From contig NC_089432.1 of NCBI RefSeq assembly GCF_026210795.1, positions 2,356,001 through 2,420,000 of the forward strand: a stretch of 64,000 nucleotides of DNA, in the 5' to 3' direction. The stretch comes from Rhizophagus irregularis. Lineage: Eukaryota; Glomeromycota; Glomeromycetes; Glomerales; Glomeraceae. Shown piece by piece: positions 7,946 to 31,175 of this stretch (within the stretch, counting starts at the first letter, position 1; the number at the start of each line of letters is the position of its first letter). Under the pieces are notes generated by a model that was given only the letters and a program-made list of their open reading frames with translations, did not search any database and was not told where the DNA came from. The position numbers were made by a program, and so were the translations under genes.

Positions 7946-7964
7946 ATATAAAGAGATTATTATA

Positions 7965-8416
7965 GCTCAACCCACCTCGGCCGCGGCCTCGCAGTACCTA
8001 CATCCCCCCTCCGTGGGGTAGGGAATCCCCTATATCTGTCACCATCTGTCATTAACATCTGTCATATAATAATATACTAAAAAAGAATGAAATAAGGGAA
8101 AAGAGAGGAAAATACGATAGAATCAGAGGGGTATGACAGATATGACGGATATGACAGATGTTTCAGAAAAATCGGGAGAGGATACTCCCAGAAAAAAGTT
8201 TTGATTTTACCCCCCCAGATCTGTCATTCTGTCATAGATCTGTCATATGATCAGGATTCAGTCTATTCATCTGTCGGAAGCAGTGAGATAGCAAACCGAG
8301 TAAACAGGTAGGTTAATAGCCCCTAGAAGGTCTGTAAAGCCACAGAGAGATAACCGGGTAGAAGCGCGGATCTTTGGAAAAAATATATTCGGCAATTGAA
8401 GATTAGGTAACTATAA
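7965..8416 (+). repeat. left terminal inverted repeat (452 bp)
   Basis: It starts GCTCAACCCACCTCGGCCGC and matches the reverse complement of 30724-31175 with one difference seen by eye (GATAG against GAAAG in the ACGATAGAATC stretch). It holds many copies of ATCTGTCAT and its complement ATGACAGAT. It ends at the promoter-like AATTGAAGATTAGGTAACTA directly before the first gene. Confidence 0.97.
8396..8403 (+). promoter_or_regulatory. TTGAAGAT promoter-like motif (left TIR)
   Basis: TTGAAGAT lies 24 bp before the ATG of the first gene. The same or a close sequence precedes most element genes on their coding strand: 30737-30744, 28101-28108 (TTGAAGAC), 25588-25595 (CTGAAGAT), 25015-25022, 15925-15932 and 15205-15212 (TTAAAGAT). 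Confidence 0.6.
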
Positions 8417-8426
8417 GTAACATACA

Positions 8427-8942
8427 ATGATAAACTTACACGCCGCCACTTCTCTTGCCGAAGATCTTGGTCTCGATCTTGTAGACATCTATGGAATCCG
8501 TAAATGGATCCAAATGCAGGCTTCGCCCTTCAACGACCCGGACATAGTAAGAGAGATGGTCAGAAACCTTCCGATCAAAGAATTCGGAAAACATCTCAAG
8601 ATAAACAGACTCTGGTACAACGGTTGTAAAGCCGAGTTGTGGAAGCGATATAAAGAAGCTGAGGAGGTATACAAACAGGCAGTAGACTACTACAGGGAGG
8701 CCATTGGCAATTTCAATGAAGCCGATCAGAAAAAATACACTAGGTTCGCAGGAATGGTGGCAGTAGAAAGAGCTCTTCTCAGATGTGGCTTTATAACGCA
8801 AGAGTCCGACTGGGAGAAATGGACTCAAATAACGTACAACATCCAATTGCTTAAGGAAGGCCGCACTCTTGATGACTCGGACGATGAATCAGATGATGGA
8901 GAGGTATCTCTCGATGACTCGGATGATGAGGAATACTTTTAG
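8427..8942 (+). CDS. unknown acidic-tailed protein of the virus-like element
   Basis: This 171-residue protein is read out of the left TIR and is the only gene served by that TIR's promoter-like motif. The body is mostly helical in appearance (LAEDLGLDLVDIYGIRKWI, YKEAEEVYKQAVDYYREAIG). The C-terminal 30 residues are an acidic Ser/Asp repeat (DDSDDESDDGE, DDSDDEEYF). I recognise no family. Its terminal position with a TIR promoter suggests an early or regulatory role, which is inference. The start is the first ATG after the motif. It is tail to tail with the next gene (9-bp gap). Confidence 0.8.
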   Translation: MINLHAATSLAEDLGLDLVDIYGIRKWIQMQASPFNDPDIVREMVRNLPIKEFGKHLKINRLWYNGCKAELWKRYKEAEEVYKQAVDYYREAIGNFNEADQKKYTRFAGMVAVERALLRCGFITQESDWEKWTQITYNIQLLKEGRTLDDSDDESDDGEVSLDDSDDEEYF

Positions 8943-8951
8943 AAGGCGGTA

Positions 8952-9272
8952 CTAATCTGTCTTTCTCTTTTTTGCTTCCTTAAGGCATTTATCAATACAC
9001 TGTTTACACGCGTCATCAGACTCTAAAATTTTTTGCCCAAGTTTTTTGCATTGCCTATTATACGCCGTCTGATGTCTTTTAGCCGCGGTTTCTTTTTTCT
9101 TCTCCTTGGTTTTCTTTTTGATAACCCAGTCTATCCCAGTAAAAGTATTCTTATGCATCCCACAAACTACACAGTCACCATGTAAACGATAGCGGCCATT
9201 TGTGGTCATATCTTGTATTTCACTAGCAGTCTCGGTTTCCTTCTTACACTTTAGGCAGTAAAATCGTGTCAT
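8952..9272 (-). CDS. DUF5679-like zinc-ribbon protein
   Basis: This is a small basic cysteine protein. The core FYCLKCKKETETASEI, then NGRYRLHGDCVVCGMHK, matches the pattern of DUF5679 (YCxKC ... NGR ... GxCxVCG), a zinc-ribbon domain seen in adintoviruses, Polinton-like viruses and giant viruses. A lysine-rich segment and a further CKQCIDKC pair follow. The first in-frame ATG is at 9272. The frame remains open upstream on this strand, but that part overlaps the integrase start on the other strand, so I chose 9272. A DNA-binding virion or core protein is plausible but not shown. Confidence 0.7.
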   Translation of the reverse strand: MTRFYCLKCKKETETASEIQDMTTNGRYRLHGDCVVCGMHKNTFTGIDWVIKKKTKEKKKETAAKRHQTAYNRQCKKLGQKILESDDACKQCIDKCLKEAKKRKTD

Positions 9273-9316
9273 CTTAAGATTTGAAGTCCGAAATCTTTCC
9301 TTTAATTTGTCGTAAT

Positions 9317-10407
9317 ATGTCGCATTTAGAGAATTATTACAAATACTACAATCTCTCCGGAGTACCGGCACGAATTCTAAAAGGTGAGGAGCACTACAAC
9401 CTATATAAAAAGCCCTAAAGGAGAAGTCATCAGAGCGTCCACAAGTAGTTGTATGGAAACCAAATGCAACACATCAGGCAGATCTTGCAGAGATGCCAGT
9501 CGACCCCAAAGGATTCCACTATTTCCTCGTAGTGGTGGAAGTCGCGGGTAAACAAGTCGATGCAGAACCCCTAAAGGATAAAACTGCAAATAGGGTTCTA
9601 AACGGGTTTGTCAAAATCTACAGAAGAAATCGTATTAAGCCACCAACACACAGACTGGAGACAGATTCCGGATCAGAATTCACTAACGACCAGGTACGTG
9701 ATTTTTTCCTGAACAGCCTAGGGGTAATGATGAGGTTCGGCGAACCAGGAAGACACAAACAGCAATCATACGCTGAACGAGCCATCCAAGCAATCCAGGA
9801 ACCTCTCCTAAAACGAATGGTGGCACAGGAGTTGAAGACCGGGGTGACATCCGTGGAATGGTCAGAAGATTTCCGTGATGTAGTTAATAAAATAGATGAA
9901 ATCTGGCAGAGAAATCCCCCAGACATTCCGACAGGGTCACCCAAAGTGTCAAAAAAGACAGAACTTCTCTCTGAAGGAACACATGTCCGAGTCAAGTTAG
10001 ACGAACCTATTTCAGTACTCGGGAATAAACTCCATGGAAAATTTCGTACAGGTGACATAAGATGGAATCCCAATATCCGTGTCATCAAAAAAATGATCCT
10101 CTCACCCGAACAGCCTCCTACGTATCTTCTTGATGGACCACACGGGCGTCTAGGTGTATCCAGATGTGCGTACACCCGAAAAGAGTTGCAGATTGTTCCA
10201 GAAAATGAACATCCCCCACCTGACTCCGTGATAAGAGGGCAACCCGAAAGATTTGTACCTGAGCGGATACTCCGGCATCGCATCAGGAAGGGTCAAGACC
10301 AGTATCTAGTCAAGTGGGAACGATACCCAGATACCGAAGCCACTTGGGAACCCGCTGACCGGTTGGAGGAGGATGTCCCTGCCTTAATCCGCAAATTTTG
10401 GGAATAA
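9317..10407 (+). CDS. rve integrase with C-terminal chromodomain (with a -1 shift)
   Basis: This is a retroviral-type integrase of the Polinton kind. Catalytic residues can be read as D in HQADLAEMP, D in ETDSGSEF and E in QQSYAERAIQ, with the Polinton-like DAEPLKDKT stretch. A chromodomain ends the protein (QYLVKWERYPDTEATWEPADRL), which may target chromatin marks. The long ORF has its first ATG at 9493, after the first catalytic D. The true N-terminus appears to start at ATG 9317 in another frame (MSHLENYYKYYNLSGVPAR). It joins by a -1 shift at 9406-9412, where AAAAAG is followed by an in-frame CCC TAA. This may be programmed frameshifting or a one-base deletion. Confidence 0.85.
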
Positions 10408-10421
10408 AAAATAAATATTCC

Positions 10422-11171
10422 CTATTTTTTGTCTCCTCGATTCACATCAGAAACTATCGGGATAAAAACATTCTTCTCATTACAAGTAAGGGCGATATGT
10501 TCACGTGATTCATGGACATCATAATTGTAACGTTTCAGACACGTCCGGCTCAATCCAATCTCCCTATGCTTGTAATCGCTTAAAACCGCGAGATTCTCAG
10601 TGATTACACAATCAGGGGTTAGTTTGATTGACACACCTTTTACCATGCCGAATGTCCTACCAGAACCCGGAGCGCCAGATATGTTATGTGTAATACTCTT
10701 GTCGATATCCAACCCTAATTCTTCAGCGGCTTCCCTCTGAATAAAAGACGCGTTAGCACAAGTGTCTGCTAAACACTGAATTGCTATCCCATTGACCTTC
10801 CCATCCAGCGCTAAAAGATCTTTAGTATTCTCCAAACGAGCTATGTCAATATCCATCGGGTCATCTTCCCTGATATCCTCTTCTTGTTTTTCCTCAACTA
10901 GGTCTTCCGGAATCTCCGTACTTTTACGAGCAGACTTTAATTCTTCCCGAAGAATCTCGCGGAGTAATTTTCTAAAATCTGCAGACCTTAATAAACTTAA
11001 TGAATCATTTTTGGTGACGGCTTTTATAAGTGTGGGCTTACTACTAGTAACCTTCACAGGAATCTTAATAGGAGTCATTTTAACTGATTTTTTTGGAACA
11101 GATTTAAGAAGTTTCGAGATACTTACACCCTTATCCGAGTTTACTTTTTTTTTGTACTTCGAACTGCACAA
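10422..11171 (-). CDS. retropepsin-like aspartic protease, -1 frame relative to Gag
   Basis: The protease core is VNGIAIQCLADTCANASFI, where ADTCANASF corresponds to the DTGA active-site box of retropepsins. It is followed by hydrophobic strands (GVSIKLTPDCVITENLAVL) and a highly basic N-terminal linker (KKVNSDKGVSISK, KSVKMTPIK). There is no ATG start. The frame is entered from the Gag-like ORF through the slippery heptamer A AAA AAG at 11144-11150, giving a Gag-Pro fusion as in retroelements. It could also be decayed. It lies tail to tail with the integrase (14 bp apart). In the element it would be the candidate maturation protease. Confidence 0.72.
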   Translation of the reverse strand: MCSSKYKKKVNSDKGVSISKLLKSVPKKSVKMTPIKIPVKVTSSKPTLIKAVTKNDSLSLLRSADFRKLLREILREELKSARKSTEIPEDLVEEKQEEDIREDDPMDIDIARLENTKDLLALDGKVNGIAIQCLADTCANASFIQREAAEELGLDIDKSITHNISGAPGSGRTFGMVKGVSIKLTPDCVITENLAVLSDYKHREIGLSRTCLKRYNYDVHESREHIALTCNEKNVFIPIVSDVNRGDKK

Positions 11172-12699
11172 ATCCGAAAACCACCTTCCTCATCGGGAAC
11201 AATTTTCAAGTCATCAAAACTCGCGGTATTAGTATCAATATCCATAGCATCATCATTAAGATCGAGGTTTCTCATTGCTCGGGCTAATTCCAGATCATCG
11301 CGTCTATCTTTAGCCTTCTGAAGTCTCTTTGGAAATCTTTTAGACGTCTCATATCCCATAATAAGATCAATAACATGTTGATCATCCTCACTAGTCCACT
11401 CAGGAGCATCAGGGTCACCAGGGTCATCACCAAAATCATGATCTACATAACCATCATCCCAATCAGGATCCTGATGATCCTGAACAACGCGTGGCCGTGG
11501 CTTTGGCCGAACAGGTTTAATCTGTTGTCTATAGACCGGTGGTTTACGAACTGGCTTAGATGCTTGTAATTGTTTAAATTGTGCCTGGAAATTCTTGGTA
11601 AGTTCCTCGGCCTGCGCCTTGAGCAATTCTTGTAATCGTTCTTGAGTAATAACGTCTGTCGACCTTTGTATTACAGCACCTTCGTGTGGAGTCACGGGAT
11701 GAGTATAGCCAGCCAATTCCTCTTTTTTAGCCTTTTCAATACCCTGGCGCCTTTGTAATCCATAGAACATTTCACCCTTTCGTCGCTCAAGATCACTCAA
11801 TCTATCGATTAATATATTAAGAGGCGCCGCCCCGATTCTGGAAGCTTCAATAACGTTTTCCGGCAAAAGTCCTCTATAGAACTGGTCAGTAACCATAATT
11901 CGATTATATCCTACAATATCCCCAGCCCTCTCAACTCGCTTATAGTAAGATCGAACAGGTTCACCTTGTTCCTGGTAAAGATTACTAAATCGTATCTGAA
12001 GTCTTTCTTCCACGACGGTTGGAAAATTTGTACGCATATGCATAAATGCTTGATCCAGGAGAATCCCCTGTAAGACTATTGGTTGATTCTGGACAGCAGC
12101 ATTAAATGGACCTCCATGATTTCCCAACCCATTAACGGGTTGATGAGTAGGACGTCCGCCCGCACGCCTCCACTGCTCTTCAACTTTAAAATTCGTTCTA
12201 ACGATATCAGCGCGTGATGGGAAAAATGCATCTCCAACGGTTACCGCCGCATTACCTGCAACCCTTGAATATACATCAGCATCAGACCCGGGTAAGTAAG
12301 TACCAACATGTAATCCATTAGCAACCTCAGGAACAGCTAAAGCTCTGAACGCTCGGCGAGTAGCACCGGCTCCACCATTTGCAGCAGCCACTAACCGAAT
12401 ATTCGAGAGTTCCCAATTTTTTCCAGTAAGTTCTGCATCAAACCACCTCGCCGCTTCATCTCTCATACAGCTACGAAGAACCCCATCACTCGCACCCGAC
12501 CAGGAGGCGCACCGGCATCGTCCAATGGATCAATACCAACGGTATTAATATACCCTAAAAAGTTATCAATAAAAAGATTAAGATCTTCATCTTCCCGACC
12601 ATGAAATATGGGGGCAGCTATACCAACGGCAGCCATATCGTATTTTGTGGATGGTTGAGAGGAGGTGGAGGAAGGTTCAATTGTCTGATCCGAAACCAT
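11141..12699 (-). CDS. Gag-like protein (two overlapping frames)
   Basis: This resembles Ty3-type Gag. The first part (ATG 12699) has APIFHGREDEDLNLFIDNFL and the second (from 12466) LRSCMRDEAARWFDAELTG. A central capsid-like segment has LQIRFSNLYQEQGEPVRSYY, FYRGLLPENV and ILIDRLSDLERRK. The C-terminal part is Pro/Arg-rich and acidic, and no CCHC knuckle is seen. The two parts are offset by -1 near 12470-12480 (the ATGGGGTTCTTCGTAGC region), so this is either a frameshift signal or a lesion. The end carries the slippery run feeding the protease. In a Polinton-like setting, Gag could replace the missing jelly-roll capsid; that is inference. Confidence 0.65.
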
Positions 12700-13322
12700 T
12701 GTACTTGGATACGCAGAGCGGCTATTTGTTGGAAAAGTCGATTCCTAAGACGTCCCAATGTCCGAATTCCAAAAAGAACCCGATTATTGGCATATACAAG
12801 CCGATTTCGTGCCACATCACGCTCGCCTATAGCTCTATTACGTTCACCTATAGCTCTATTACGTTCTCCTCTCATAAGATTATATTGCTGCTGAAGACGA
12901 CGATTAGTCGTCCGCATACCACCAAACTCACGTTCCAATTCAGCCAAATTAGCTTCTAAACTAGTAATAGTATCTTGTACGTTATTTAGCTCATCTTGTG
13001 TAAGACCTAACAAACCCGTTTGAACCTCGAGTTCATCTTGTAATTCATCACGTTCTTTTCGAGATCGATCGCGTTCCGCTTTTAATATATCGCGTTCTTC
13101 GTATGTTTCTCTACAGCGATGAATTAATAAATTAAGAGCATGTTTAAGACGATGGTTTGCATTTTGTACATCTCGATTAACAACCATGCGATCACTGACA
13201 GTTAAAAAATCTGTTAGATCCTTAATTACCGCAACTAATGGTATATTATTCATATCACGCAAATCCCTAGGAGGCGGTCCAGTAGGCTCTGAAGGAGTAT
13301 AAATTGCAATTGGTGTCGACAT
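12618..13322 (-). CDS. coiled-coil structural-type protein
   Basis: This 234-residue protein is dominated by a long coiled coil (about residues 65-200), with heptads such as RDILKAERDRSRKERDELQD and ITSLEANLAELEREFGG. A tandem GERNRAI repeat follows. The N-terminus is Pro-rich. Its end overlaps the first Gag-like frame by about 80 bp in another frame (again -1), so it might form the N-terminal extension of the Gag protein by a further frameshift, or be separate. It is divergent from the ATPase with only 31 bp between the ATGs, so the two must share a promoter region. No enzymatic motif is seen. Confidence 0.7.
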   Translation of the reverse strand: MSTPIAIYTPSEPTGPPPRDLRDMNNIPLVAVIKDLTDFLTVSDRMVVNRDVQNANHRLKHALNLLIHRCRETYEERDILKAERDRSRKERDELQDELEVQTGLLGLTQDELNNVQDTITSLEANLAELEREFGGMRTTNRRLQQQYNLMRGERNRAIGERNRAIGERDVARNRLVYANNRVLFGIRTLGRLRNRLFQQIAALRIQVQWFRIRQLNLPPPPLNHPQNTIWLPLV

Positions 13323-13353
13323 CGTATTTAAACTAAGATAGAATAAAATTCAA

Positions 13354-14577
13354 ATGGATCTTTATGTATACAATTTGGACGAGTACACGACCGACTCGAG
13401 ACAGGGTAATGAGTTTGCCCCATCATGGCCTTTCCGTCTTGCCGTAGCAGGAAGTTCTGACTCGGGTAAGACAACTATGATTATTAATTTGTTAATGGGA
13501 GACAAGAAGGCAAAGGAGGATGGCGAAAGGTACATATTATGTGATGCGGTAATTCTAGTTGGCAGATACCTCGATGAACCGAAGTGGGCAGTCGTACGTG
13601 ATTTTTTCAAAGAAGAAGAAATTCCGTTTACCGCAGTATCCCATAGTGAGATTCCAAATGTTAAGGACTTCAACTCCACCCAGGCTACTGTGGTAATCTT
13701 CGAGGATTTGATGGATGCGCCTAAAAAAACCCAGGATCTCATCACTGGATTTTTTACACACGGGCGTCACAAAAATATCTCGTGTATCTATGTGGCCCAA
13801 AGATTCTTTACCATTCCCAAGGCTATTCGTGAAAATGTGAATTATATTTCCCTACATGGAGGTCACGGAAGTTTGACCGATACTAAGAGGATCATCCGCC
13901 AGTATACAGAAGAATCGGAGTCACTAGCTCCAGTAATCGATGACCTTACTCTACAACGCGAATTTATAGTATTTGATCTTAGAAGATCCAAGAGCGATCC
14001 GTTATCTATTCGGGTTAGATGGGATACTAGTCTCAGTTCGATCACCGATCAATCTCAGTTCGATCCTAGTTCGATCTCAGTTCAATCCCCGTTCGATCCG
14101 AGTTTGAACCCAGTTCGATCAAAGTTCAATCCGAGTTTGAACCCAGTTCGATCAAAGTTTAGTTCCTATGGCCAGAAAGCCGTAGCTGAAGCAAAAAAGT
14201 CCTCCCAGCTAATCGAGTTTGCTCGGGAATATCCATCGCCTAAAGAGAGAAAACACCTTCTCGTATCTGGTGTTATAGCTAAGAACGCAGATACCTGGAT
14301 TAAGTACGTCTTTCGGGAAGCCTACGGACTATCTGGTAAAACCCTGGGATCAGACTTCCAAAACTTCTTAGCGAAAGTACGGGATAGGACCACGAAGACT
14401 GAAATTCCAAAACCTGAGACCGTAAAGGAGTTATTCTCCCGATATGAAGTCCTGAAGTCTAGTCACCCTTTGGATAATAAAAAATTAATAGAAGGCATCG
14501 GGGTCCTTTTACAGATCTTTTCTAAGGGTCATATGGACCGTCGAGCATTACGAGTAGGGATCAATAGTATTTTGTAA
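13354..14577 (+). CDS. A32/FtsK-HerA-type genome-packaging ATPase
   Basis: This 407-residue P-loop ATPase has Walker A GSSDSGKT at residues 33-40 and Walker B TVVIFEDLMD near residue 115. It also has the viral packaging-ATPase signature IYVAQRFFTIPKAIREN near residue 150. In Polintons and large DNA viruses this enzyme pumps DNA into capsids. After the ATPase core lies a low-complexity linker of FDPS/NPVRSKF repeats (residues about 228-268, with an exact 30-bp direct repeat at DNA level). An extra C-terminal helical domain of about 130 residues follows that I do not recognise. Its presence argues that the element makes, or recently made, particles. Confidence 0.88.
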   Translation: MDLYVYNLDEYTTDSRQGNEFAPSWPFRLAVAGSSDSGKTTMIINLLMGDKKAKEDGERYILCDAVILVGRYLDEPKWAVVRDFFKEEEIPFTAVSHSEIPNVKDFNSTQATVVIFEDLMDAPKKTQDLITGFFTHGRHKNISCIYVAQRFFTIPKAIRENVNYISLHGGHGSLTDTKRIIRQYTEESESLAPVIDDLTLQREFIVFDLRRSKSDPLSIRVRWDTSLSSITDQSQFDPSSISVQSPFDPSLNPVRSKFNPSLNPVRSKFSSYGQKAVAEAKKSSQLIEFAREYPSPKERKHLLVSGVIAKNADTWIKYVFREAYGLSGKTLGSDFQNFLAKVRDRTTKTEIPKPETVKELFSRYEVLKSSHPLDNKKLIEGIGVLLQIFSKGHMDRRALRVGINSIL

Positions 14578-14590
14578 GAATCTGGTTGCT

Positions 14591-15142: not shown

Positions 15143-15303
15143 GGCTATCTTTCTTTGATTATTCGCTCGCTTAGTATCCTTCACAATCTTTTTTATATAT
15201 TGTTATCTTTAAATACCTGTCATTTGTATAAAAAAAAAATAACTGGCATTAAGGGATCAACCGTTGGAAAGACCGGAAGACCAGAGGACCGGAGGACTCA
15301 CCA

Positions 15304-15888
15304 TTAGGAAGCGCAGTCCTTGCACAACTTGTCCGTTAAGTCACTTGGGCTTACAGGCATGAGACATTCCCTACACAACTCAATATTAAGCTCTGCAAGT
15401 CTCGGGGCATGGTCCTCCAAAGTTCGTGGATGACCGGAAGGACCGGAGGAAGGTGTCCCGTTAGTCGTATTCTGCTGTAAGATAAAATCATCATATTCAT
15501 CTTGGTCAGCTTGAATAGCGGCTCTGATTTGTTGTATATTATTGAAAGTTAACCGCTGGCCATCAAGATTTTCCTCATTATAGCGTGTTTCATTGATGAT
15601 TTCATCTATAAGCTCCTCCTCTTCAGAATGAACAAGGTAGTAGTCCTCAACTACCTCGTAGTCACTCTCAACCAGTCTATGATACGTTCTAGTACCGTGT
15701 TGAATATAGCGTCCTGTATCTGTATTTAAATATACAGGTTGTTCCTGGGGTGGAGGCGGTACGGTTTGTCTACGGACAAGCCTTCCATCGATATAATCAT
15801 GGGATTCCATAACTATTCGATTAAAGGTATCTCCACCAACACGGATTGGACGTCCGGTTATAGGATTAGTTATATAAGGGTATGACAT
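15304..15888 (-). CDS. 2-cysteine-adaptor-like protein with C-terminal zinc ribbon
   Basis: The N-terminus reads NPITGRPIRVGGDTFNRI. This is the NPxTGRxIxxGGxxYxxL signature of the 2-cysteine adaptor domain found in large DNA viruses (iridoviruses, giant viruses), although the flanking cysteines are absent. A second, weaker copy follows at residues about 53-73 (NTDTGRYIQHGTRTYHRLV). The middle is acidic, and the C-terminus has two CxxC pairs (CRECLMPV, CKDC) typical of a zinc ribbon. In large viruses this domain is attached to many proteins and is thought to mediate protein binding. The promoter-like motif (15925-15932) lies between this gene and the inserted LINE. Confidence 0.7.
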   Translation of the reverse strand: MSYPYITNPITGRPIRVGGDTFNRIVMESHDYIDGRLVRRQTVPPPPQEQPVYLNTDTGRYIQHGTRTYHRLVESDYEVVEDYYLVHSEEEELIDEIINETRYNEENLDGQRLTFNNIQQIRAAIQADQDEYDDFILQQNTTNGTPSSGPSGHPRTLEDHAPRLAELNIELCRECLMPVSPSDLTDKLCKDCAS

Positions 15889-16242
15889 GTCTTTTTTCTG
15901 TACGTGTCTACATACCTAATTGTTATCTTCAATTTACAATAACCAAGTGACATCGTCATCAGTCCTTGTCAAGGCAAATATGGCATAGTAGCCTTTATCT
16001 TTATTAAAATTATTTAACGAACTTACAAAAAAATAAAATAAAATTTTCAAAGTACAAAAAAGAAAAATAAAATTAACTAAAAACAAAACTATATAGTCTC
16101 CAAAACAGTAATAAAGCTATAAAATTAATTCAAAAAGGAAAAAATCGCATAACACTAAAACTATCCTGATCCCCCGCCTAGATATATTCCAACCTAAGAA
16201 GAAGCAACTATGCAAGCAAACTAACGAACAATGCGCCCATTA

Positions 16243-16482: not shown

Positions 16483-16491
16483 CGCATTTTC

Positions 16492-19400
16492 CTATTTAGA
16501 TTTGTCATAGGAACGCGGTAGCCAAATTCGTTTTCTGATCTTTTGGATAAAGTGATTGTGGATGGCAGAGATAACCTTCATCGCAGAATTACGTGGGATA
16601 GAAAGTTCTTCAAAAATTTCAACAAAGGATTTCGGAAGGCAGCCACGGACAAGGCTATATGAAGTCCAATTTGAAGAAGAAAAGGACCAACAAGGAAGAG
16701 ATTTAAATTTGTTAATAAGTAAAGAGGGATCTTTCTTAACGAGATCACCAGCTTCTTGAAGTTTGTTGATAAAATGATGTTGGTAGGAGAGGAGAATCTG
16801 TTCCATAGCAATTCGTCTACATTTGCACATAAAAAGGTGCATGAAATCTTCCTTGGAGTCGAGACATGAACGACATGATAAAATGTCGATATACAAGTCC
16901 GGGCGAATTCTTTTAAGATGTTCCAAAGTAGGCAAATCTTCCAAAAAGAGTTTGAATTTGAAGGTGCGATGAGAGGAAGCATGAGCTCGAGTAAAAGAGG
17001 CATCATGTTGAGGTTCAGAATTGAGCGAAAACCAGGTAAGATCCCAATCAATCACGAAATCTGAAGTAAAAGATAAATCAATGGTGAAATTAAAACGTGA
17101 TAAACGCGTTAGTCTATGCATCCACAGCATTTGCGAATATTGCTTGAATAGGCGTCGTGGGTTGGATTCACATAAAATATCATCATATTTTAATAAGAAA
17201 TCGTGAGGAGATACTTGATCCAAATCAGAAAGAAGAACTGCTGAAGAGGAAGTATGCGCAGAATTGGCCAATGAGTCCGCGTAGTCATTGTAGAAATTAC
17301 CAGAGTGACCTTTCACTTTAACAGCCGTGACAGATAAAGATTTAGAGAAAATGAGACTTTCAATAATAGCCCAAAGTTCAAAATTGGTGGTCTTGTAATA
17401 GAGCCTACTATTGGAATAAGAAAAGGTAGCACATAGACGAAGACCATCTATGGCAGATTGAGAGTCAGTATAAATAGTGACCGTTGAGAAGGGAGGAGTG
17501 ACTGTAAGAGCAGCATGTATAGCGGCAATTTCAGCTCTTGTAGAGGAAGGCCAGTTATGAATAATTCCATGAGCGTAAGCAGCGATAGATTGGAAAAAAC
17601 CAGCGCCATCGAGGACTTGAACCCAAGACCAACCCATAGAAACCTCAGGAGTGCCAAGGTTAATTAAAGAACCATCAGTATAAAAACAATAATGGTTATT
17701 AGGAGGAGTCGCTAACGGTGAGGCAGCAAAAGCAAGAGAAGCAGCCGAGCCCAAAGAGGAAGAAAGAGAAGGAGTAGGGAGAGTAACCATCTCTACTTGT
17801 GAAAAATTAGGTTGAGTGTCCAAACGACCATAATATGATCTTACAGTTTCATCAAGGTCCACCCAAGTGAAAGGAGAAGTAATAGTAGTGGTATCATGTC
17901 TAATACGCTCCTGCGTTGTCGGGAGAATTAAAGATCTAAGAGGAGAAAGTTTTGGGATGATACATAAAGGGGTAACATCTGTAGGATTACTTTTAGTATG
18001 GGTAACCGGTATATGTTTAGAACAACCAGGACAAGGAGTGAGCGTGATAACATCATTAGGTCGAGTCACACAATCAGAAGTCCAATGGACAATCTTGCAA
18101 GAATATTGTTGTTTGCTGAGCTGTTTTCCAAATAAAGGGGAACCATCTTCGTCCAAAGACACGATCCATTTCATGGATTTTCTAGAGGAACCAAAGGCAG
18201 GAACCAAATCAACGCCTGAAGGAACGGCTTCGGAAGAGAATTGATCCAAGAGTAGAGAATTGGAATTTGGAACGGTGACATTTTGATGAATGTCATTGAA
18301 CCACTTATGCGGGAGGACTCGATGACCTTTCCTACTTGATAAGCTGGAAAGATAAACATTCCAAGTGATCATATGGGTTCCTTGAGGCGTGATAAATTGA
18401 GATAGGTAATAGAGTTGCAGACTTCTTAGACGTCGGAAATAAGAGATAAAAATCTTTGGGGTCATTATTTCAAATAAAGGCGTATGACCATCGGATACAG
18501 TAAGGTTAGGCAAAGTTGAAAGTGGAGAACATGACAACTTGAAAGGAGTGGCAGTCAGGAGAGCAATAGTGCAAGCGATATAATCCTGCTTAAAAGCAAA
18601 AAGTTTAGACCATATAGTCCAATCTTTAACTAACAACGGAGAAATAGGAATCAAAAAAGAAAATTGAATTAAACGTAATCTATAGAAAAATAAATTTTTC
18701 ATAAAAGAAGAAGAAGAATTAGCTAATAAAAATAAATTAGTTAAATGTGTTTGTGATTGGTGAAAAAATAAATTAATCAATCCCAAGCCTTGAGATAAAA
18801 ACAAAATAGAATCTGGGAGTACACGTGAAAAATTGGCCTTATGTTTAACCATGGAACGAATACTACTGGTTGCCGAGGCACATTCAGATTCGGAGAGGTG
18901 AGTGACTTGCATGCGATATTCCAATTTTGGGATAAGGACGGTGTTGTGCAAATAGACTACTTGTTTAGCAGATAATTTGGCAGGACGAACGGTAGCAGCG
19001 AAAGAGTTGCATTCTCTAGCAACTTGCTTTTTAACAAAATCGCGAGAACCAGCGACATTGAACCAGACGCCCAGGAAGCGGAAAGAGCTATTCATGGAGA
19101 TGGGCACAATAGAAATGGAAGGAACTTTGTTCAATCCAGATAAATGTAAGTCAAACACGACAGGAGAAGGTGAAGAAACTGAAGTGGAAGGCAACGAATT
19201 AGTAATTAAAACATATTTGTTGTGATTAGCGGAAGTATTATTAATTTGATAAAATTCTTCCGTAATAGAGAGCATCGATTCCATTCCGGATTTGGATGAT
19301 GAAATTAAAGTGGAATCATCCATAAAGACCAAGTTATTGATACGTAATCCATCAGAATTTGTCATAGCCAAGGGATTAGATAATAAAGAAGCATGAAGCG

Positions 19401-21864: not shown

Positions 21865-21911
21865 TAGAGCACAATGATAATAAAGTACGGGGAAAAAAGG
21901 TGAGAAGTCAG

Positions 21912-24032
21912 TTATTGCGAAGGAGCTGAAGCTCGATCGGAGGGAGAACCACCAAGAGAAGCAATGAAACCTTGAATGGAACCAGTGAGCGATTGTAAAG
22001 TATCTTTAATCGCTTTTTGATCTTGAATAACTGAGTTCAATTCGTCTTGCGGGGAAGGGTTAGAAGTAGAAGCGGGAGCAGAGTGCAGAGCCTTGTTGGA
22101 AATAGATATAGGGGAAGGGGATTTCATAGAACCAGAAGATGATGAGGGAGCATTGGGATGTTGGATTAAAATGCCAGTGATTTCGGGAGGATCTTCTTCC
22201 ATTCGATCAGGTTCAGAATTAATGATAGGTACAGAGGGAGGACTAATGCCTAAATGAGCTTCTATAGCAGAAAGCCGTTGGTTGTTTAGTTCAAGGGAGG
22301 AAATGCGGGATTCCACACGAGCAACATCTTGTTGAAGGTTCTTTAGAACATTAAGAATGTTAAGAGCGGCCTCAAGGGCACTAGAAGAATTCGAATCAGA
22401 GAGCGGAGCACGAGCATTGGACGAAAAAGAAACAGATCTATCTTTGCCTTTTCGGGTAATCGAAGGTGCGCGTCCATGGGCAGGTGAACCAGAAGAGGGG
22501 GGTTTGTTATTATTATTGTTATTACCATTAGTATTAGAACTATTGGAATTGGAATTAGAACGGTGAGCAGAAGCAGAACGATCCCGAGATTTAGATCGAG
22601 AACGAGAACGTGAATTATTGCGCGGCGTTCTTTGTTGGACGGGCTTTTGGCCAATATTGAAACGTTCTTTAAGAGCAGCCACAGGGTCACGTGTACGTGA
22701 GCGACCACGGCGTTGATTAAGCGGGCAAGAGGTAGGAGCACAACCAAGTTTACCACAACGATGGCAAAGAGCTTTCGAATCATTGGATGAACCCCACCGA
22801 AGAGTACGACCTTGAAAACCAATAGTTTGCTCCATAGCGGCATCCATTGTTTCCTGCGAGTTGAAGGTGACATAAGCCCAAGGTTTAGGTTTATAAGAAT
22901 TCAGGGAAAGGGGAATGTTAATTGCTTTTGCTCCATGTTCTTTAACCAGAGGAGCGAGATGAATATCTTTAGTATTAGCGGGAAGTCCAGAGAGAACAGC
23001 CACGAACGCTCTACGAGCGGCTTTTTGATCTAAGGAGTAGTGGCACGGGGTAACACGCAAGCAGGTAGAAAAGCAGTAAACTGCCCATTGAGTAGTGAAA
23101 CGGGAAATGGCATCGGCATGATCATAGACAATGCGGGCTTGTTGCATCTTAGCACCTTTCCTCGAGTAAAGATGGATGGTAAGGAGGTTGCCAAACTTCT
23201 TGAAATAGGATTGGAGTTGCGGTTTAGTAATGAAGAACGGGATATCTGTTACTTGAATTGCACGGAGGTCTTCATCGGATCGGAGCTGTTTGGGATCGTA
23301 CAGGTGGAATTGAAGGTCCGGAAAGTCGGAATGTGTGCTACCAACACACAAGTCACGAGCTTCCGCAGTATGAAAATGTATGATAAGACGTTTAGCGTCC
23401 CCTGAGCCAGTCATACGTGCACGACCGGTATATGATTCATACGTTTCTAAAAATAAGTTGTTAACGGCTTCTATAATTGCCTTATTGGTTTTAAGTTTCT
23501 CAAGAGTTTGGGGAGCGGAGTTGGGCGCAGCCGCAGCCAGGAAATCTTGACGATTAATGGTAATGGTAGGGGAGGGATCAACAGCCTGATCGGGCGATGT
23601 ACCATCATTAACGTCCATATTAGGGGACGCGTTAGGGGATGGGTTATTTTCTTTGTTTCGAGGTGCATGAATAGACGCGTTAGCTCCAGAAGACGCGTCT
23701 TGGCCAGGCGCAATAGGCGCAGCAGAATTTTTCGGGGTAGAAGCTTGAGTATTTTCTTGGGCAGTGCTGCGGGAATTATTTTGTTGAGGAATAGCGGTCG
23801 AAGTTGAACCAACTAAACCACCGTCAGCCGGCGCGTCGGCAACGAAATCTTCATAGTCTTCATCCATAGAGTCTTTTGTAAGTATACGGGAACGTTTTTG
23901 GGAATTATTATCACTATCGGAACCAGAGTTATCAGAGAGTTGTTTTTTATTATTTTTCTTTTCTTGACGAGCAGCCTTATTACTGTTAGGGTTATAGCTG
24001 CCGCCACCTCTTCTAGCAAGGTTTCTAGACAT
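21912..24032 (-). CDS. LINE ORF1: RRM and zinc-knuckle RNA-binding protein
   Basis: This 706-residue protein has a Ser/Asn-rich, low-complexity N-terminal third. Two RRM-like domains follow (about 250-325 with IQVTDIPFFITKPQLQSYF, and about 335-410 with FVAVLSGLPANTKDIHL and PWAYVTFNSQETMDAAM). Then come a cysteine knuckle CHRCGKLGCAPTSC and an Arg/Ser-rich stretch. A short coiled coil (about 560-600, NLQQDVARVESRISSLE) and a Ser/Pro-rich tail end the protein. It would coat LINE RNA and form the RNP with ORF2. It precedes ORF2 by 47 bp. Confidence 0.85.
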   Translation of the reverse strand: MSRNLARRGGGSYNPNSNKAARQEKKNNKKQLSDNSGSDSDNNSQKRSRILTKDSMDEDYEDFVADAPADGGLVGSTSTAIPQQNNSRSTAQENTQASTPKNSAAPIAPGQDASSGANASIHAPRNKENNPSPNASPNMDVNDGTSPDQAVDPSPTITINRQDFLAAAAPNSAPQTLEKLKTNKAIIEAVNNLFLETYESYTGRARMTGSGDAKRLIIHFHTAEARDLCVGSTHSDFPDLQFHLYDPKQLRSDEDLRAIQVTDIPFFITKPQLQSYFKKFGNLLTIHLYSRKGAKMQQARIVYDHADAISRFTTQWAVYCFSTCLRVTPCHYSLDQKAARRAFVAVLSGLPANTKDIHLAPLVKEHGAKAINIPLSLNSYKPKPWAYVTFNSQETMDAAMEQTIGFQGRTLRWGSSNDSKALCHRCGKLGCAPTSCPLNQRRGRSRTRDPVAALKERFNIGQKPVQQRTPRNNSRSRSRSKSRDRSASAHRSNSNSNSSNTNGNNNNNNKPPSSGSPAHGRAPSITRKGKDRSVSFSSNARAPLSDSNSSSALEAALNILNVLKNLQQDVARVESRISSLELNNQRLSAIEAHLGISPPSVPIINSEPDRMEEDPPEITGILIQHPNAPSSSSGSMKSPSPISISNKALHSAPASTSNPSPQDELNSVIQDQKAIKDTLQSLTGSIQGFIASLGGSPSDRASAPSQ

Positions 24033-24240
24033 GTTAGAAGGTATGAGTTGGGTAAAATATAAGAGTTGTTAGTACGAAGATATAAAATTTTCTTTCCGAA
24101 AATTTTTGGTTAATAGATCAGCGGTAAGAGATCTTATCAGTTCTTTCAGTCCTTGTCAAAAAAATGCGAGGATGCCTGATGATGAGGTTACATGGTCATC
24201 AGTCCTTGTCGCAAAACACGAGGATACCTGATGAATAAGT

Positions 24241-24615
24241 TATTGGATTATTGGCCTAAAAAGCATTCATGGAAAAACTATGGATTATATTACAGAAAAT
24301 GTGAACGGAGTTCATGTCACGTGATACCCTGAACAAATGTGTAGAGTGTCACGTGATTTCATGCGGTACGTAGATCATTTCCTTTTTGGGCGATACCCGT
24401 TCCACAAAAAATCGATTTTGGTAAAAATGCGTTTGGAACCTTGTGTAACATAAATTTCCTTTTTCGGTAATTCGGGATTACGCGGTAATGCCGGCCGGAT
24501 CTAAAAAATATGACTCTGCAGGGTAATTCCTACGAAAGTCAAGTACAAAATGCTTACTCCTGTTGAGTCCATTCATACCACTCCCAGTCCCCAAGGATCG
24601 CCTCCCCATCTTTGT
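24241..24615. other. gap between the LINE 5' end and the F-box-like gene
   Basis: No gene is seen in these 375 bp. There are two TCACGTGAT palindromes (about 24317 and 24352). It may be LINE 5' UTR or element sequence. Confidence 0.4.
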
Positions 24616-24978
24616 TCACTTAATGCATACTCTATGGTTTCCCTCTCTTGGGGGTCCCACGACCATCCCATTCCTAAGCATTTTCTCCATAATATAAAGC
24701 TGATCCTCGGTGAGGCGGTTTATCCATCTTTTATAGAGGTCGTTTACATCTTCAAACGTTATCCAGTCAATTTCCCTCTTTATATAATGCTTTCCGAGAG
24801 CTCGGATTTCACAGTACACATCCCCGATCGTAGTGGCATAATTTTTCCACCTCTTATATGCCTCTCGACGAACTTCCTGCCACCACACTCTATCTACCTT
24901 ACTCGCTGCAATAAGGTCAGTATCCGGGATCTTTGCGACAATGCGTTCGACTATTTCTACTGGTAATCGGTCCAACAT
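24616..24978 (-). CDS. F-box-like small protein of the virus-like element
   Basis: The first 35 residues read LDRLPVEIVERIVAKIPDTDLIAASKVDRVWW, quoted here as the pieces LPVEIVERIVAKI and DLIAASKVDRVWW. This is the LPxE...L...V...W pattern of an F-box. The remaining 85 residues are charged and helical without repeats. F-box proteins bridge Skp1-cullin ubiquitin ligases to targets; viruses use them to redirect host degradation, so a host-interaction role is possible. The TTGAAGAT motif lies 37 bp upstream (25015-25022). It is 120 residues long, short for a cellular F-box protein. Confidence 0.65.
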   Translation of the reverse strand: MLDRLPVEIVERIVAKIPDTDLIAASKVDRVWWQEVRREAYKRWKNYATTIGDVYCEIRALGKHYIKREIDWITFEDVNDLYKRWINRLTEDQLYIMEKMLRNGMVVGPPREGNHRVCIK

Positions 24979-25087
24979 GATGTTATGTTACTTATACTAT
25001 AGCTATCTTCAATTACTGTATGCCTATTACACATGGATAAAAAATATAGACTAAATTCGTACGGGATCGTAGGACCACAGGAGCCGC

Positions 25088-25558
25088 TTATGCAAGAAGT
25101 TCTGTTAAGGTTTTCTCAGCCTCGTTTTTAGTAATAGCTCGCTTTGGGGGACCGGTTGATGAGTCCTTAGTCGCATTATAATACAATTCGAAGAGGGCCT
25201 CAAGCTTATCTAGGAGAGCTTGTTTATTCTTGTATGATTCGCGGATTTTTGCTATTTTAGCAGTATATGCCGCATTATCTGGGAAGAGTTTTCTGGCCAC
25301 GAACTTCACATATGATACAGGAGAATTTGCCGTTTGGATTCGCTTGATATACTTCACGTGGTCCTGGACGAGGTAACTGGTTTTGCTAAACCCAGATACT
25401 AATGCGACTACTATAGTATCTTTTAATGCGCGGATAATCTTGGGGACAGTTTCGTCAGAGACAACATTAGGCTGAATGCGCGATGCCTCGTAAATAACCT
25501 CCTCACTAGTGCTGTCAGTGCTGTTAACAATGCTTGCGAATTCGGTATATGTTGACAT
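25088..25558 (-). CDS. unknown 156-aa helical protein
   Basis: This appears to be an all-helical protein (IPKIIRALKDTIVVALVSG-like and YTAKIAKIRESYKNKQALL segments). It has no cysteines, signal peptide or membrane span. No family is recognised. The promoter-like CTGAAGAT (25588-25595) lies 30 bp upstream. Its N-terminus starts MSTYTEFASIVN, comparable in style to the 14591-15142 gene product (MSTSIVIN), but no clear homology is seen. Confidence 0.65.
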   Translation of the reverse strand: MSTYTEFASIVNSTDSTSEEVIYEASRIQPNVVSDETVPKIIRALKDTIVVALVSGFSKTSYLVQDHVKYIKRIQTANSPVSYVKFVARKLFPDNAAYTAKIAKIRESYKNKQALLDKLEALFELYYNATKDSSTGPPKRAITKNEAEKTLTELLA

Positions 25559-25640
25559 GATTCTTTGTACTTTGTAAAAAATATAAATCTTCAGTTACCT
25601 GTTCATTCGAATGAGAAAAAATAAATATGAACCTCAGGGT

Positions 25641-26165
25641 TTACACTTGGGATACTGCAAGACAGTAGAAGCGTCGCTCGGCCTTTTGCATCAATGGAGA
25701 GCCTGGTCTATATAACCAGGGGATAGCGACTTTCTGGATTATCCTAGCCGCTTTATTGTTCCTTCTTTCTATATATCTCCTAAAGGCATTCTGGATCATT
25801 TCAGCATGATGAGTATAATAGTCGAAATTAAATTGCTTTGGACAACTATATAAATGTAGTCGCACCGCTTGATCCATGAAAGCGTCAGCTCCCCATCCGC
25901 GATCAATAAAAGATTTACAGTAGGTACAGTACCACCTATTTGGTAGTCGTGATACTATTCTCCTAATGTGCACAATATAAGCATATACAGCTTGACGAGA
26001 CCTTGGATAAGGTAGCCGCCTATGAAAACCTATTCTACTACAAGTCTCATAATATTGCACAGCATTCTGAATGCGCTTAGCCCACGCGTGGAAACTTTCG
26101 TCGTCTTGTCTACCTAATCCGTCAGTGTTTTGCATTTGGGTATCTCGTAAGATTACATATCCCAT
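25641..26165 (-). CDS. zinc-finger/IQ-like protein (unknown)
   Basis: This 175-residue protein has a CxxC...HxxxC pattern (WYCTYCKSFIDRG, then RLHLYSCP), suggesting one zinc finger. An IQ-like segment near the C-terminus (AARIIQKVAIPWLYRPGSPL) resembles tails seen in many giant-virus proteins. ATG 26165 is chosen because the extended frame would use TTG. The coding-strand AATTGAATAAACC just upstream is a weak form of the element's promoter-like motif. The function is unknown. Confidence 0.6.
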   Translation of the reverse strand: MGYVILRDTQMQNTDGLGRQDDESFHAWAKRIQNAVQYYETCSRIGFHRRLPYPRSRQAVYAYIVHIRRIVSRLPNRWYCTYCKSFIDRGWGADAFMDQAVRLHLYSCPKQFNFDYYTHHAEMIQNAFRRYIERRNNKAARIIQKVAIPWLYRPGSPLMQKAERRFYCLAVSQV

Positions 26166-26228
26166 AGGTTTATTCAATTATGCCATCACGATATGTCAGT
26201 AAAAAATATACATACCGGTCCCTAGCAA

Positions 26229-28082: not shown

Positions 28083-28168
28083 TTTTATGTATATGATTTG
28101 TCTTCAACTATAAATAATATCTTTCTATATATATACGAAAAAAAAAAAGAAATAATCTCAAATAGCGC

Positions 28169-30694
28169 TTACAATATGTCGTTGATAGCGCCCTCAGTAT
28201 CCTCTTCGTCCCAGTCATCGATGATTCCATTGGCGGCCTCCCATTCACGTTCCATATCAGTTTTTGGACGTTCCTCGGGGATCTCTCGCGCTTTACCCTT
28301 ATCTGCCCTCATAGTTTCATAACCAGAGGGGGTGGGAATAATCTCGGCATTACGATTCTCCTTGTATATTCTTATTAAATCTGCGAGTTCTTTACGGCTA
28401 GGTATTTTAGGTAAGTATCCATTATATTCAATCCAGTCCTTGAAGCGGTCTACTACCTCCATAAGGTAGTACTGGTACTCGTCCTCAATACGCGTTGTGG
28501 GACATTCCTCTATTTCAAACGCGAGTATTTCCCAGTCATATTCGTCTGACGCGTCTTGGTACTTGGCCCATAATTCCTTACCTGTATTGTAGAGATCATT
28601 GAAGACCTGGTCCTTTAAATTTTTAACCCATGGTTTGCGATCCCATCGGTGTCTTTCTTGCCAAGCCCAGTGCGCTCGAGTGCCTTCCTTTGGTTCAGGA
28701 TCCCGGTCAACTTCTGGTTCTGTGTCGGGTTCTGGGATAAATTGCTCTTCAGAAGCCGGTTCTGGGTCAGGCTTAGTGACAGATGCAGAAGATTCTGCGG
28801 GATACTCGGGTTGTTGTTCAGCAGCTGAGTTCACAGTTGTAAAATCTGAGTCTGATAATAAGTCGTCTAAGACGTCGTAGTTATCTGGCTCGGGGGCAGA
28901 CGGTTTTTCAGGAACTGGGTTTGCAGTTGTAGAATCCGAGTCTGATAACAAGTCATCTAAGACGTCGTAGTCATCTAGCTTGGGGGCAGACGGTTTTTCT
29001 TCCCTTAACTCTTGTAAACGTTCTTTTAAGTGGTCAGGCTTGGGTGGAAGCGGTGGAGGAGTTTTGCGAATTACAGGTGCGGGTTTTTCTTCAACGGGTT
29101 CGGGTTTTTCCTCTGTGGGTTCGGGTTTTTTCTCAGCGGATTTTTCCTCAGCGGGTTCGGATTTTTCTTGTACGTCTTGTGAATTGTTAGCTGGATTATA
29201 TATATTTGCCAAGAACTTATCCAAGGCATTGGGGTCTGATGCGGGTTTCTTAGAAGTCTCTATATCAATTCCTTCTATATCTATCTCGTCTGTTTCGTGG
29301 ATCCAGTTTTTGCCGAGGTATTTATTGTAAAGATCCTCCCTGGATATGCTATATACTCGGGTTAACTTTTTATTTATATAAGTCCGATTACTATTTATAC
29401 TCAACTCATTTGATAGGATTCTAGAAGCGTTTATCTTTGATAAGGGTGTAATGCCACGAGTTTCGCAATATGAAGTATATACCCTATAAAATTCTTGAAC
29501 AGGTAGGTCGGTCATATAATTTTTCACTATGAGGTATGTGTCCTTTATAAATTGGAATAGCGGTGGAAGAGTTGAGATGATATGTTCCTGTTTGGATGTT
29601 GTCATGGGTGGCGGATTTCCATTGAAGTCTGAGTAAGTATTCGCAATGGCTCTCAAATAAGCATAGAATGCCTCACTGGCGCCTGGGTATTTCATAGCGT
29701 CACCGAGTTTTTTGAAGTAGTTGAGGTCTCCCTTGCGGGATGGTGACACATCCAAGAACACTGTGCGCCTATCATCATTATCCACTCTGAGAGCATTTTC
29801 GTTGGTTAGGACGATAGTAGACATAAAGTTTTTATAATGTGTTGGTGTCTTGTATTTTTCATGGATTTCCATTATGTCACTCGTTACCTTATCCTTTAAA
29901 GAGCGATACAGATTATTCCACTGGCTTTTTTCCGTGGGCATTTCCTCGAGAAGAAGAAGAATCTTACCCTGTAATTGCCCATTGAAACTTCCACGAATCG
30001 TCTGAGGATCGCTGGTCTTATAAACGAGTTGAGTGCCTAGGACGCTGCGCTGAATGAAATCTGTTATAATGCCTTTGCCCCAACCCTGTCCAGATTTCAG
30101 GTAAAGGATCGAGTACATCTTCCTTCCAGCAGATACACCGGCCAACCACTTGATGATATACTCAGTGAGATTCCAATCACCCGAACACCAGATATCCTGA
30201 ATGTGAGAGAAGATAAATTTAACCGCGAGGTGAATTGTAGACTCAAAGGTGGATATCGGACGCAAGACGTGGAGGAATCCCGGGAAGATATTTAGATAGA
30301 GTTGGCCGGTTAAGGATCTGAAGATTCGCTGTTTATGGGGATCACAGGTTGCATTACATACATCGGTATTCTCGACCATAAACCATTTGTAGATGTTGAA
30401 CTCGGTCTTTTGAGAGGGTCCTTGTTCAGGTTGTGTGTAGAATACCTTCATAATTGGACGGATAAGTTTACCAATATTTTTGTCAATAACGTGTTTCAAA
30501 CTTTTACTATCCGGGTCCCACCAGAAAACCCCATGAGGATCTGCACAGGGAATGAAATAACTGCAAAGATACCTCTTGGCTTGATCGAGGTCACTCATAC
30601 TCTTTGCAGCGACAATAAGCCGTTTAAGCTCATTGATACTAAAGGCTTTCGTTTGTTCACCGAATTTGGGGATAACTTGAGCTTGAGTGGTCAT
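28169..30694 (-). CDS. D5-like superfamily 3 helicase
   Basis: The N-terminal 450 residues carry the SF3 helicase core: Walker A LKSGQGWGKG (about 203-212), Walker B KILLLLEEMP (about 250) and motif C STIVLTNEN (about 295). This is similar to D5/primase-helicases of NCLDVs and virophages. It would unwind element DNA for the polymerase gene downstream (86 bp apart, same strand). The C-terminal 390 residues are low complexity: Glu/Lys/Pro repeats (EEKPEPVEEKPAP), then two copies of a DDYDVLDDLLSDSD block, then a charged tail. It is transcribed from the right TIR (motif 30737-30744, 43 bp upstream). No primase domain is recognised. Confidence 0.88.
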   Translation of the reverse strand: MTTQAQVIPKFGEQTKAFSINELKRLIVAAKSMSDLDQAKRYLCSYFIPCADPHGVFWWDPDSKSLKHVIDKNIGKLIRPIMKVFYTQPEQGPSQKTEFNIYKWFMVENTDVCNATCDPHKQRIFRSLTGQLYLNIFPGFLHVLRPISTFESTIHLAVKFIFSHIQDIWCSGDWNLTEYIIKWLAGVSAGRKMYSILYLKSGQGWGKGIITDFIQRSVLGTQLVYKTSDPQTIRGSFNGQLQGKILLLLEEMPTEKSQWNNLYRSLKDKVTSDIMEIHEKYKTPTHYKNFMSTIVLTNENALRVDNDDRRTVFLDVSPSRKGDLNYFKKLGDAMKYPGASEAFYAYLRAIANTYSDFNGNPPPMTTSKQEHIISTLPPLFQFIKDTYLIVKNYMTDLPVQEFYRVYTSYCETRGITPLSKINASRILSNELSINSNRTYINKKLTRVYSISREDLYNKYLGKNWIHETDEIDIEGIDIETSKKPASDPNALDKFLANIYNPANNSQDVQEKSEPAEEKSAEKKPEPTEEKPEPVEEKPAPVIRKTPPPLPPKPDHLKERLQELREEKPSAPKLDDYDVLDDLLSDSDSTTANPVPEKPSAPEPDNYDVLDDLLSDSDFTTVNSAAEQQPEYPAESSASVTKPDPEPASEEQFIPEPDTEPEVDRDPEPKEGTRAHWAWQERHRWDRKPWVKNLKDQVFNDLYNTGKELWAKYQDASDEYDWEILAFEIEECPTTRIEDEYQYYLMEVVDRFKDWIEYNGYLPKIPSRKELADLIRIYKENRNAEIIPTPSGYETMRADKGKAREIPEERPKTDMEREWEAANGIIDDWDEEDTEGAINDIL

Positions 30695-30723
30695 TTTTTC
30701 GTTCTATTAAATCGAGTACTAAT

Positions 30724-31175
30724 TTATAGTTACCTAATCTTCAATTGCCGAATATATTTTTTCCAAAGATCCGCGCTTCTACCCGGTTATCTCTCTGTGG
30801 CTTTACAGACCTTCTAGGGGCTATTAACCTACCTGTTTACTCGGTTTGCTATCTCACTGCTTCCGACAGATGAATAGACTGAATCCTGATCATATGACAG
30901 ATCTATGACAGAATGACAGATCTGGGGGGGTAAAATCAAAACTTTTTTCTGGGAGTATCCTCTCCCGATTTTTCTGAAACATCTGTCATATCCGTCATAT
31001 CTGTCATACCCCTCTGATTCTTTCGTATTTTCCTCTCTTTTCCCTTATTTCATTCTTTTTTAGTATATTATTATATGACAGATGTTAATGACAGATGGTG
31101 ACAGATATAGGGGATTCCCTACCCCACGGAGGGGGGATGTAGGTACTGCGAGGCCGCGGCCGAGGTGGGTTGAGC
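30724..31175 (-). repeat. right terminal inverted repeat (452 bp)
   Basis: This is the inverted counterpart of 7965-8416, of the same length and near-identical. It carries the same CTGTCAT iterations and, at its inner edge, the promoter-like motif that precedes the helicase gene. Near-identity implies recent insertion or homogenisation of the ends. Confidence 0.97.

Follow-up and report, generated by a model that had tools for sequence, protein, structure and literature searches.

Which particle, if any, serves a mobile DNA element that encodes a viral genome-packaging ATPase beside a Gag-like protein and a retropepsin? The question is raised by an element of the fungus Rhizophagus irregularis that lies in the window, the 64,000-nucleotide stretch of DNA analysed here, which is part of contig C4. 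Many eukaryotic DNA viruses are held to go back to ancestors near the Polintons, whose hallmark is a packaging ATPase together with a jelly-roll capsid. The preliminary description of the window had proposed that in this Polinton-like unit the particle-forming module was exchanged for the Gag and protease of a retroelement. We found that a block of three genes, encoding a coiled-coil protein, a Gag-like protein and a retropepsin (Pro), sits between the integrase and ATPase genes, belongs to the element and is under selection. The gene combination is almost certainly real and kept, and the whole is probably a self-synthesizing Polinton-type DNA transposon of R. irregularis with a retroelement-type particle-making block.

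Linkage of the block to the element and selection on its genes

Is the block a regular part of the element? Searches of the fungus's own genome (146.7 Mb in 32 contigs), whose counts are lower bounds, gave at least 108 matches to the ATPase, at least 98 to Gag, at least 153 to Pro and at least 71 to PolB. The linkage analysis took in every one of the 108 ATPase and 98 Gag matches; for Pro it used 115 of 153, excluding distant matches and short second pieces, and the counts of places given here hold among the matches listed. Merging yielded 101 ATPase places, of which 99 had Pro on the opposite strand, upstream and no more than 25 kb away, and 86 had Gag within 20 kb. Within 3 kb of the ATPase we found Pro at 90 places, Gag at 81, either at 93 and neither at 8. 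The control arrangement gave 0 at 3 kb, and the chance expectation for Pro was 0.12. Six Gag places had no ATPase nearby. Fifteen ATPase places lacked a Gag match; reading five of them revealed Gag remnants in each. One copy of the A type defined below (L017) was truncated behind the coiled-coil gene, and its Gag tally came from a neighbouring element.

By ATPase identity the copies form two subfamilies, A (~93–100%) and B (~82–89%). Most genes differ little between them; Gag is 54% identical over aligned codons and the coiled coil 55%. Ratios of nonsynonymous to synonymous substitution rates (dN/dS), taken by a simple method from single pairs of copies, were 0.06 for the integrase, 0.07 for PolB, 0.09 for Pro, 0.10 for the ATPase, 0.40 for Gag and 0.56 for the coiled coil between A and B, and 0.05 for Pro, 0.13 for the ATPase, 0.33 for Gag and 0.92 for the coiled coil (very few changes) within A. 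Given these low ratios, Pro looks like a working protein. The presumed structural proteins, Gag and the coiled coil, appear to evolve fastest, as is often seen with shell proteins. Along Gag, dS between A and B was 1.2–1.8 over the first two thirds (one stretch being saturated) and 0.07–0.67 over the last third, compared with 0.74 for the ATPase. Both Gag and the coiled-coil protein are mosaic between the subfamilies, with a diverged front and a well-kept C-terminal part (for Gag, 11141–12466 versus L011:3394–4824); the Gag mosaic would fit either an exchange of the capsid part or a much greater age of that part.

The Gag-like protein is, in our view, very probably a genuine Gag that includes a CA domain. 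Its AlphaFold2 (AF2) model is mostly helical and has no jelly roll, and its one well-modelled part resembles retroviral CA C-terminal domains by Foldseek/VIA, with moderate scores and for the C-terminal CA domain only; the highest Foldseek probability went to that domain of PEG10. Retrotrans_gag was detected weakly in 17 of the 37 members of the Gag alignment, and a sequence search of Gag against the PDB matched no capsid protein. The Gag frame, earlier described as a single open reading frame (ORF) at 11141–12699, is in fact broken near 12467 in the window. A predicted protein of R. irregularis DAOM 197198 matches 99% of the length of the open part at 100% identity, which makes the host this species or a close relative. 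In other copies, open Gag frames of 498 aa (C7, C13) and 476 aa (C24, C17, C2) occur.

The retropepsin, whose Asp_protease_2 match is above the Pfam cut-off, does lie in the -1 frame of Gag, as had been described, and the coiled-coil frame overlaps the Gag start in a different frame. Directly before the Gag stop there is a run of A residues, which a pattern search in the lineage of the window's element (lineage I) found as A9G at 10 of 12 junctions and as A8G at the other two. No RNA structure was found downstream of this run, and slippage of the ribosome or polymerase on it is therefore the likely route to Gag-Pro. In place of the usual retropepsin motif, DTGA or DSGA, the lineage I proteins that were read have DTCA, and a second lineage (II, see below) has DPGA; lineage I Pro is nonetheless under strong purifying selection.

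Ends, gene content and later damage

The terminal inverted repeats (TIRs), 452 bp long as first noted, were read in the window sequence at 7965–8416 and 30724–31175 and are 100% complementary; the bounds of 7965–31175 drawn from them have to be revised: because TTATAG stands on both flanks (Table 1), the target duplication sets the limits of the element at 7966–31204. Comparison with other copies places the true TIR start ~30 bp farther out, and the left end in the window lacks the outer 29 bp. A 6-bp target duplication is a known Polinton trait; a clear one was seen in three of the four copies examined, with GATAAG at C11 and ATAGGG at C7, and the C17 copy had no clear one. Long terminal direct repeats of the long terminal repeat (LTR) type were not found, the ends being inverted and the sole direct repeat family a 90-bp pair. 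Guanine plus cytosine content is 0.38–0.45 inside the element and mostly 0.20–0.37 in its surroundings.

Within these limits lies a long interspersed nuclear element (LINE) of ~7.5 kb, overlooked when the span was taken as a single unit. It is a later insertion foreign to the element, because it is absent from copy C11, which is 99.4–99.6% identical to the window on both flanks; as a component of the element it was rejected. The sole reverse transcriptase (RT) found in the span belongs to the LINE, and the element has no RT-RNase H of its own. Relatives of the LINE also occur near or inside other copies (L012, L014, L024). The window copy is otherwise damaged too: besides the broken Gag frame, its integrase is shortened to 304 aa, compared with 363 aa in some other copies, where the longer frames reach 617 aa for PolB and up to 850 aa for the helicase.

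Pfam matches for PolB, the SF3 helicase, the A32-type ATPase and the rve integrase uphold the view that these four share one unit. The ATPase scores 41.6 bits against Pox_A32 (cut-off 22.8), and the integrase matches the chromodomain at E 7e-18 and rve at E 4e-6, the latter below cut-off in the shortened window copy. Of the two small proteins named at the outset, the 2-cysteine-adaptor-like one retains a 2C_adapt match that lies below the gathering score, and the DUF5679-like one drops out, with no DUF5679 match among the window ORFs. The 183-aa protein beside the ATPase is modelled as helices with a winged-helix-like end and no jelly roll; its best PDB match, an RFX5 complex, is weak (E 0.17), and none reaches 0.001. 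The protein of the small ORF at 8427–8942 is 94–100% identical in two A-type copies; B-type copies have a shorter frame, to which it is 33–39% identical. In the helicase gene, the acidic proline-rich C-terminal part holds a 90-bp tandem duplication (28813–28992, 86% identical). Relatives of the ATPase and of the 183-aa protein (P0180, P0266) stem from metagenome contigs that are each 9,937 bases long and may be one and the same, and a 62% relative of the ATPase occurs in R. clarus.

Could a classical capsid gene be hidden among the remaining frames? In copies C11, C7 and C17, every frame of at least 250 aa inside the element is accounted for by the helicase, PolB, ATPase, Gag, Pro, integrase or coiled-coil gene, with none left over for a major capsid protein (MCP), and no window ORF has a Pfam capsid match; the reported lack of a double-jelly-roll MCP is thus borne out. 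The same holds for the adenoviral-type cysteine protease, which had no Pfam match in the 16 window ORFs (two of them the LINE's), a retropepsin being present. PHROGs gave no capsid match among 9 proteins, and the fold check, which covered Gag and the 183-aa protein, showed no penton-type jelly roll in the model of the latter; one of the other small proteins may yet be penton-like. A whole-genome search for capsids of nucleocytoplasmic large DNA viruses (NCLDV) and adenoviral proteases gave no match, a weak result because the models drew a blank in the control genomes as well.

Table 1 Features of the element and its flanks, in window coordinates
Feature	Position	Strand	Evidence or remark
Target site duplication TTATAG, left	7960..7965	.	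Same six bases after right end
Left TIR, without outer 29 bp of other copies	7966..8416	+	Window and copy comparison
Small ORF, 171 aa	8427..8942	+	No assigned function
rve integrase with C-terminal chromodomain	9493..10407	+	Pfam rve, Chromo
Retropepsin (Pro), -1 frame of Gag	10422..11171	-	Asp_protease_2 E 3e-8, gag-asp_proteas E 2e-6; dN/dS 0.05–0.09 (two pairs of copies outside the window)
Gag-like protein, open part of broken frame	11141..12466	-	AF2 and Foldseek/VIA; Retrotrans_gag weak
A9G run directly before Gag stop, presumed slippage or -1 frameshift site	11144..11153	-	Conserved in lineage II
Coiled-coil protein	12618..13322	-	End overlaps Gag start
A32-type genome-packaging ATPase	13354..14577	+	Pox_A32 E 1.3e-10
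Helical protein, winged-helix-like C-terminus, 183 aa	14591..15142	-	AF2 mean pLDDT (predicted local distance difference test) 83
2-cysteine-adaptor-like protein	15304..15888	-	2C_adapt E 9.5e-4, below gathering score
Nested LINE: endonuclease-RT-RNase H ORF2 and RRM ORF1	16671..24145	-	Absent from C11 copy
F-box-like small protein	24616..24978	-	F-box E 0.006, below cut-off
156-aa protein	25088..25558	-	No Pfam family; dN/dS 0.15 between subfamilies
178-aa protein	25641..26177	-	No Pfam family above cut-off
PolB (organellar/viral type), 617 aa	26229..28082	-	DNA_pol_B_2 E 3.4e-6, barely above cut-off
SF3/D5-type primase-helicase	28169..30694	-	DUF5906 E 1.4e-17, Pox_D5 E 1e-5
Right TIR, with outer 29 bp	30724..31204	-	Window and copy comparison
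Target site duplication TTATAG, right	31205..31210	.	Copy comparison

A second lineage in the same genome

Lineage II was reached through weak Pro matches. Its identity to lineage I is 42% in the ATPase, 33% in Pro and 26% in the integrase; Gag, coiled coil, PolB and helicase gave no match between the lineages in the stretches compared. Both lineage II Pro junctions that were read have A9G before the stop, and upstream of each lies a decayed Gag-like stretch, recognised by eye, where Gag searches gave no match. The order of genes differs: in lineage II the block precedes the integrase, after which come an endonuclease-like region and then the ATPase, whereas in lineage I it stands between integrase and ATPase. 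Behind the lineage II integrase, or fused with it, is a zinc-finger and endonuclease-like region (L034:779–1444, L043:1–1422) that we take to be Vsr-like, for which Pfam gave only a weak DUF4379 match.

Once lineage I was removed by position, 58 further ATPase matches merged into 55 places. A convergent Pro lay within 25 kb at 27 of these, 25 of them within 8 kb; all 27 are among the 40 places with at least 43% identity, and none is among the 15 below 43%. These 15 places make up a third group of A32-type ATPases, 33–42% identical to lineage II, with no retropepsin found nearby (in G000, C9:53861, C9:2848792, C22:634406, C2:3488056, C6:2239560 and 10 more). For PolB in lineage II, 50 of 54 matches and 31 nearer Pro places were compared, and 27 of 35 merged PolB places had a convergent Pro at 1.5–7.7 kb. 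Judged by this spacing between separate places, the block and PolB would lie in one element.

The lineage II PolB (L031:428–2368 and 34 further places) has a PDB match, at E 1e-93, to a polymerase of 1206 aa, which we take to be the African swine fever virus DNA polymerase. Because this is its best solved relative, we rejected it as a canonical Polinton polymerase and kept lineage II out of the Polinton class. Asfarvirus-like polymerase genes reported in R. irregularis may partly stem from such mobile elements rather than from inserted giant viruses. A tree of 25 ATPases placed the 11 usable lineage II sequences on one side of a fully supported branch, with metagenome relatives among and around lineage I. 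An ATPase search of viral contigs confirmed none of 3 stretches with a single sequence and none of 55 with an alignment. Since the block is kept in two far-diverged lineages of a single fungus, these may represent a long-lived group of DNA viruses or transposons of fungi.

Possible roles of the block and relation to known systems

How might such an element work? PolB, together with the D5-type helicase, would copy its linear double-stranded DNA, and the chromodomain integrase would insert the DNA copy. Gag would be made along with less Gag-Pro, through slippage on the A9G run; Gag would build a shell or core, the retropepsin would mature it, and the A32-type ATPase would load the element's DNA into the Gag shell. 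That Gag-Pro forms a particle or core used by the element seems probable to us. Packaging of DNA into the Gag shell by the ATPase is a more tentative proposal, and so is the full picture of a double-stranded DNA virus-like element that packages its DNA by an A32-type ATPase into a retropepsin-matured Gag shell, combining one realm's particle with another's motor. The ATPase is under selection and stands beside a Gag and a protease of another class, unlike in the nine capsid-less Polintons cited below. Functional replacement of the shell module is the simplest reading, and it points to an exchange of particle machinery between two kinds of virus that are unrelated. Of the two conditions named at the outset as refuting, neither was observed in what was covered: Gag-Pro is kept in most copies, and the models of Gag and the 183-aa protein show no jelly roll. 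The exchange for a retroelement Gag-Pro proposed there accordingly stands as regards a block kept in most copies and a Gag with a CA-type fold; that the block came from an LTR retroelement by exchange is a more tentative part of it.

The presence of Gag-Pro in most copies also bears on how the block arrived. With at least 150 Ty3-type matches in the genome, an LTR retroelement fragment could have inserted into one copy by chance, yet Pro stands on the same side and strand at 90 of the 101 ATPase places, the block is under purifying selection and the same slippage site recurs in lineage II; the copy counts refute this account, to which we assign practically no probability. A different matter, touching origin alone and compatible with a Gag shell used by the element, is whether lineages I and II took up the block separately from related retroelements. 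Lineage II Pro stands at about the same distance from Pro copies remote from any ATPase found (mostly 36–39% identity) and from lineage I Pro (28–35%), and the block's placement differs between the lineages, but these also share ATPase and integrase as well as an identical A9G junction, and separate uptake is conceivable without being the view we favour.

As to function, the element might be purely intracellular, its Gag-Pro nucleoprotein core serving nuclear return or target choice and its ATPase some other DNA-handling task. We regard this as rather unlikely: Pfam recognised no envelope or penton gene, the integrase carries a chromodomain, only integrated copies were seen and no ATPase relative was confirmed in the viral contigs, but an ATPase of a packaging family is under strong selection (dN/dS 0.10), and nine Polintons without a capsid gene also lack the protease and the ATPase, according to the accessible part of Krupovic et al. 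2014 (PMC4028283). It is more improbable still that the element is a satellite whose DNA is packaged by the capsid of another element or virus, with Gag-Pro serving, for example, interference with retroelements or with the helper. The third ATPase group, unread, may hold jelly-roll capsid genes, and the available text of PMC10640383 reports a 1.5-Mb giant-virus insertion in R. irregularis; against a satellite, Gag and Pro hold their position in most copies, and the genome-wide search for NCLDV capsids and adenoviral proteases, weak as it is, was empty. If replacement of the shell is true, a lineage that keeps the ATPase while its Gag and protease are of retrovirus type would show that capsids can be exchanged in nature between viral realms, and it would explain why no capsid gene was detected in R. 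irregularis Polintons. It raises a testable question: could a motor that packages DNA operate on a shell made of Gag?

With Polintons/Mavericks (polintoviruses) the element shares TIRs, a 6-bp target duplication, PolB, a chromodomain rve integrase and an A32-type ATPase. It differs in its Gag-retropepsin block, in the lack of any jelly-roll MCP or adenoviral-type protease found and in its short PolB (617 aa). It is thus Polinton-like in replication and integration and fails the family's capsid and protease features. Polintons of Glomus intraradices (= R. irregularis) are named as lacking a detectable MCP in the part of PMC7805220 available to us, and these probably belong to the element group described here or to one related to it; the passage mentions neither Gag nor retropepsin, and "Gag" is absent from that paper's main text. 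The accessible part of PMC8647823 describes Mavericks of R. irregularis as recently expanded, many copies having low methylation, which is in keeping with activity of the element. The open-access papers searched, most subscription journals lying outside the search, yielded no report of a Gag-bearing Polinton, in line with the initial statement that no described lineage with this combination was known to its author.

A CA-type Gag, a retropepsin in another frame after Gag and a chromodomain integrase are traits of Ty3/gypsy LTR retrotransposons (Metaviridae), and the element has all three; it differs from them in having DNA replication genes and neither LTRs nor an RT of its own. The Gag also resembles PEG10 and other tamed Gags, the C-terminal CA domain of PEG10 having the highest Foldseek probability, but those are host genes, whereas this Gag is encoded by a DNA transposon present in many copies.

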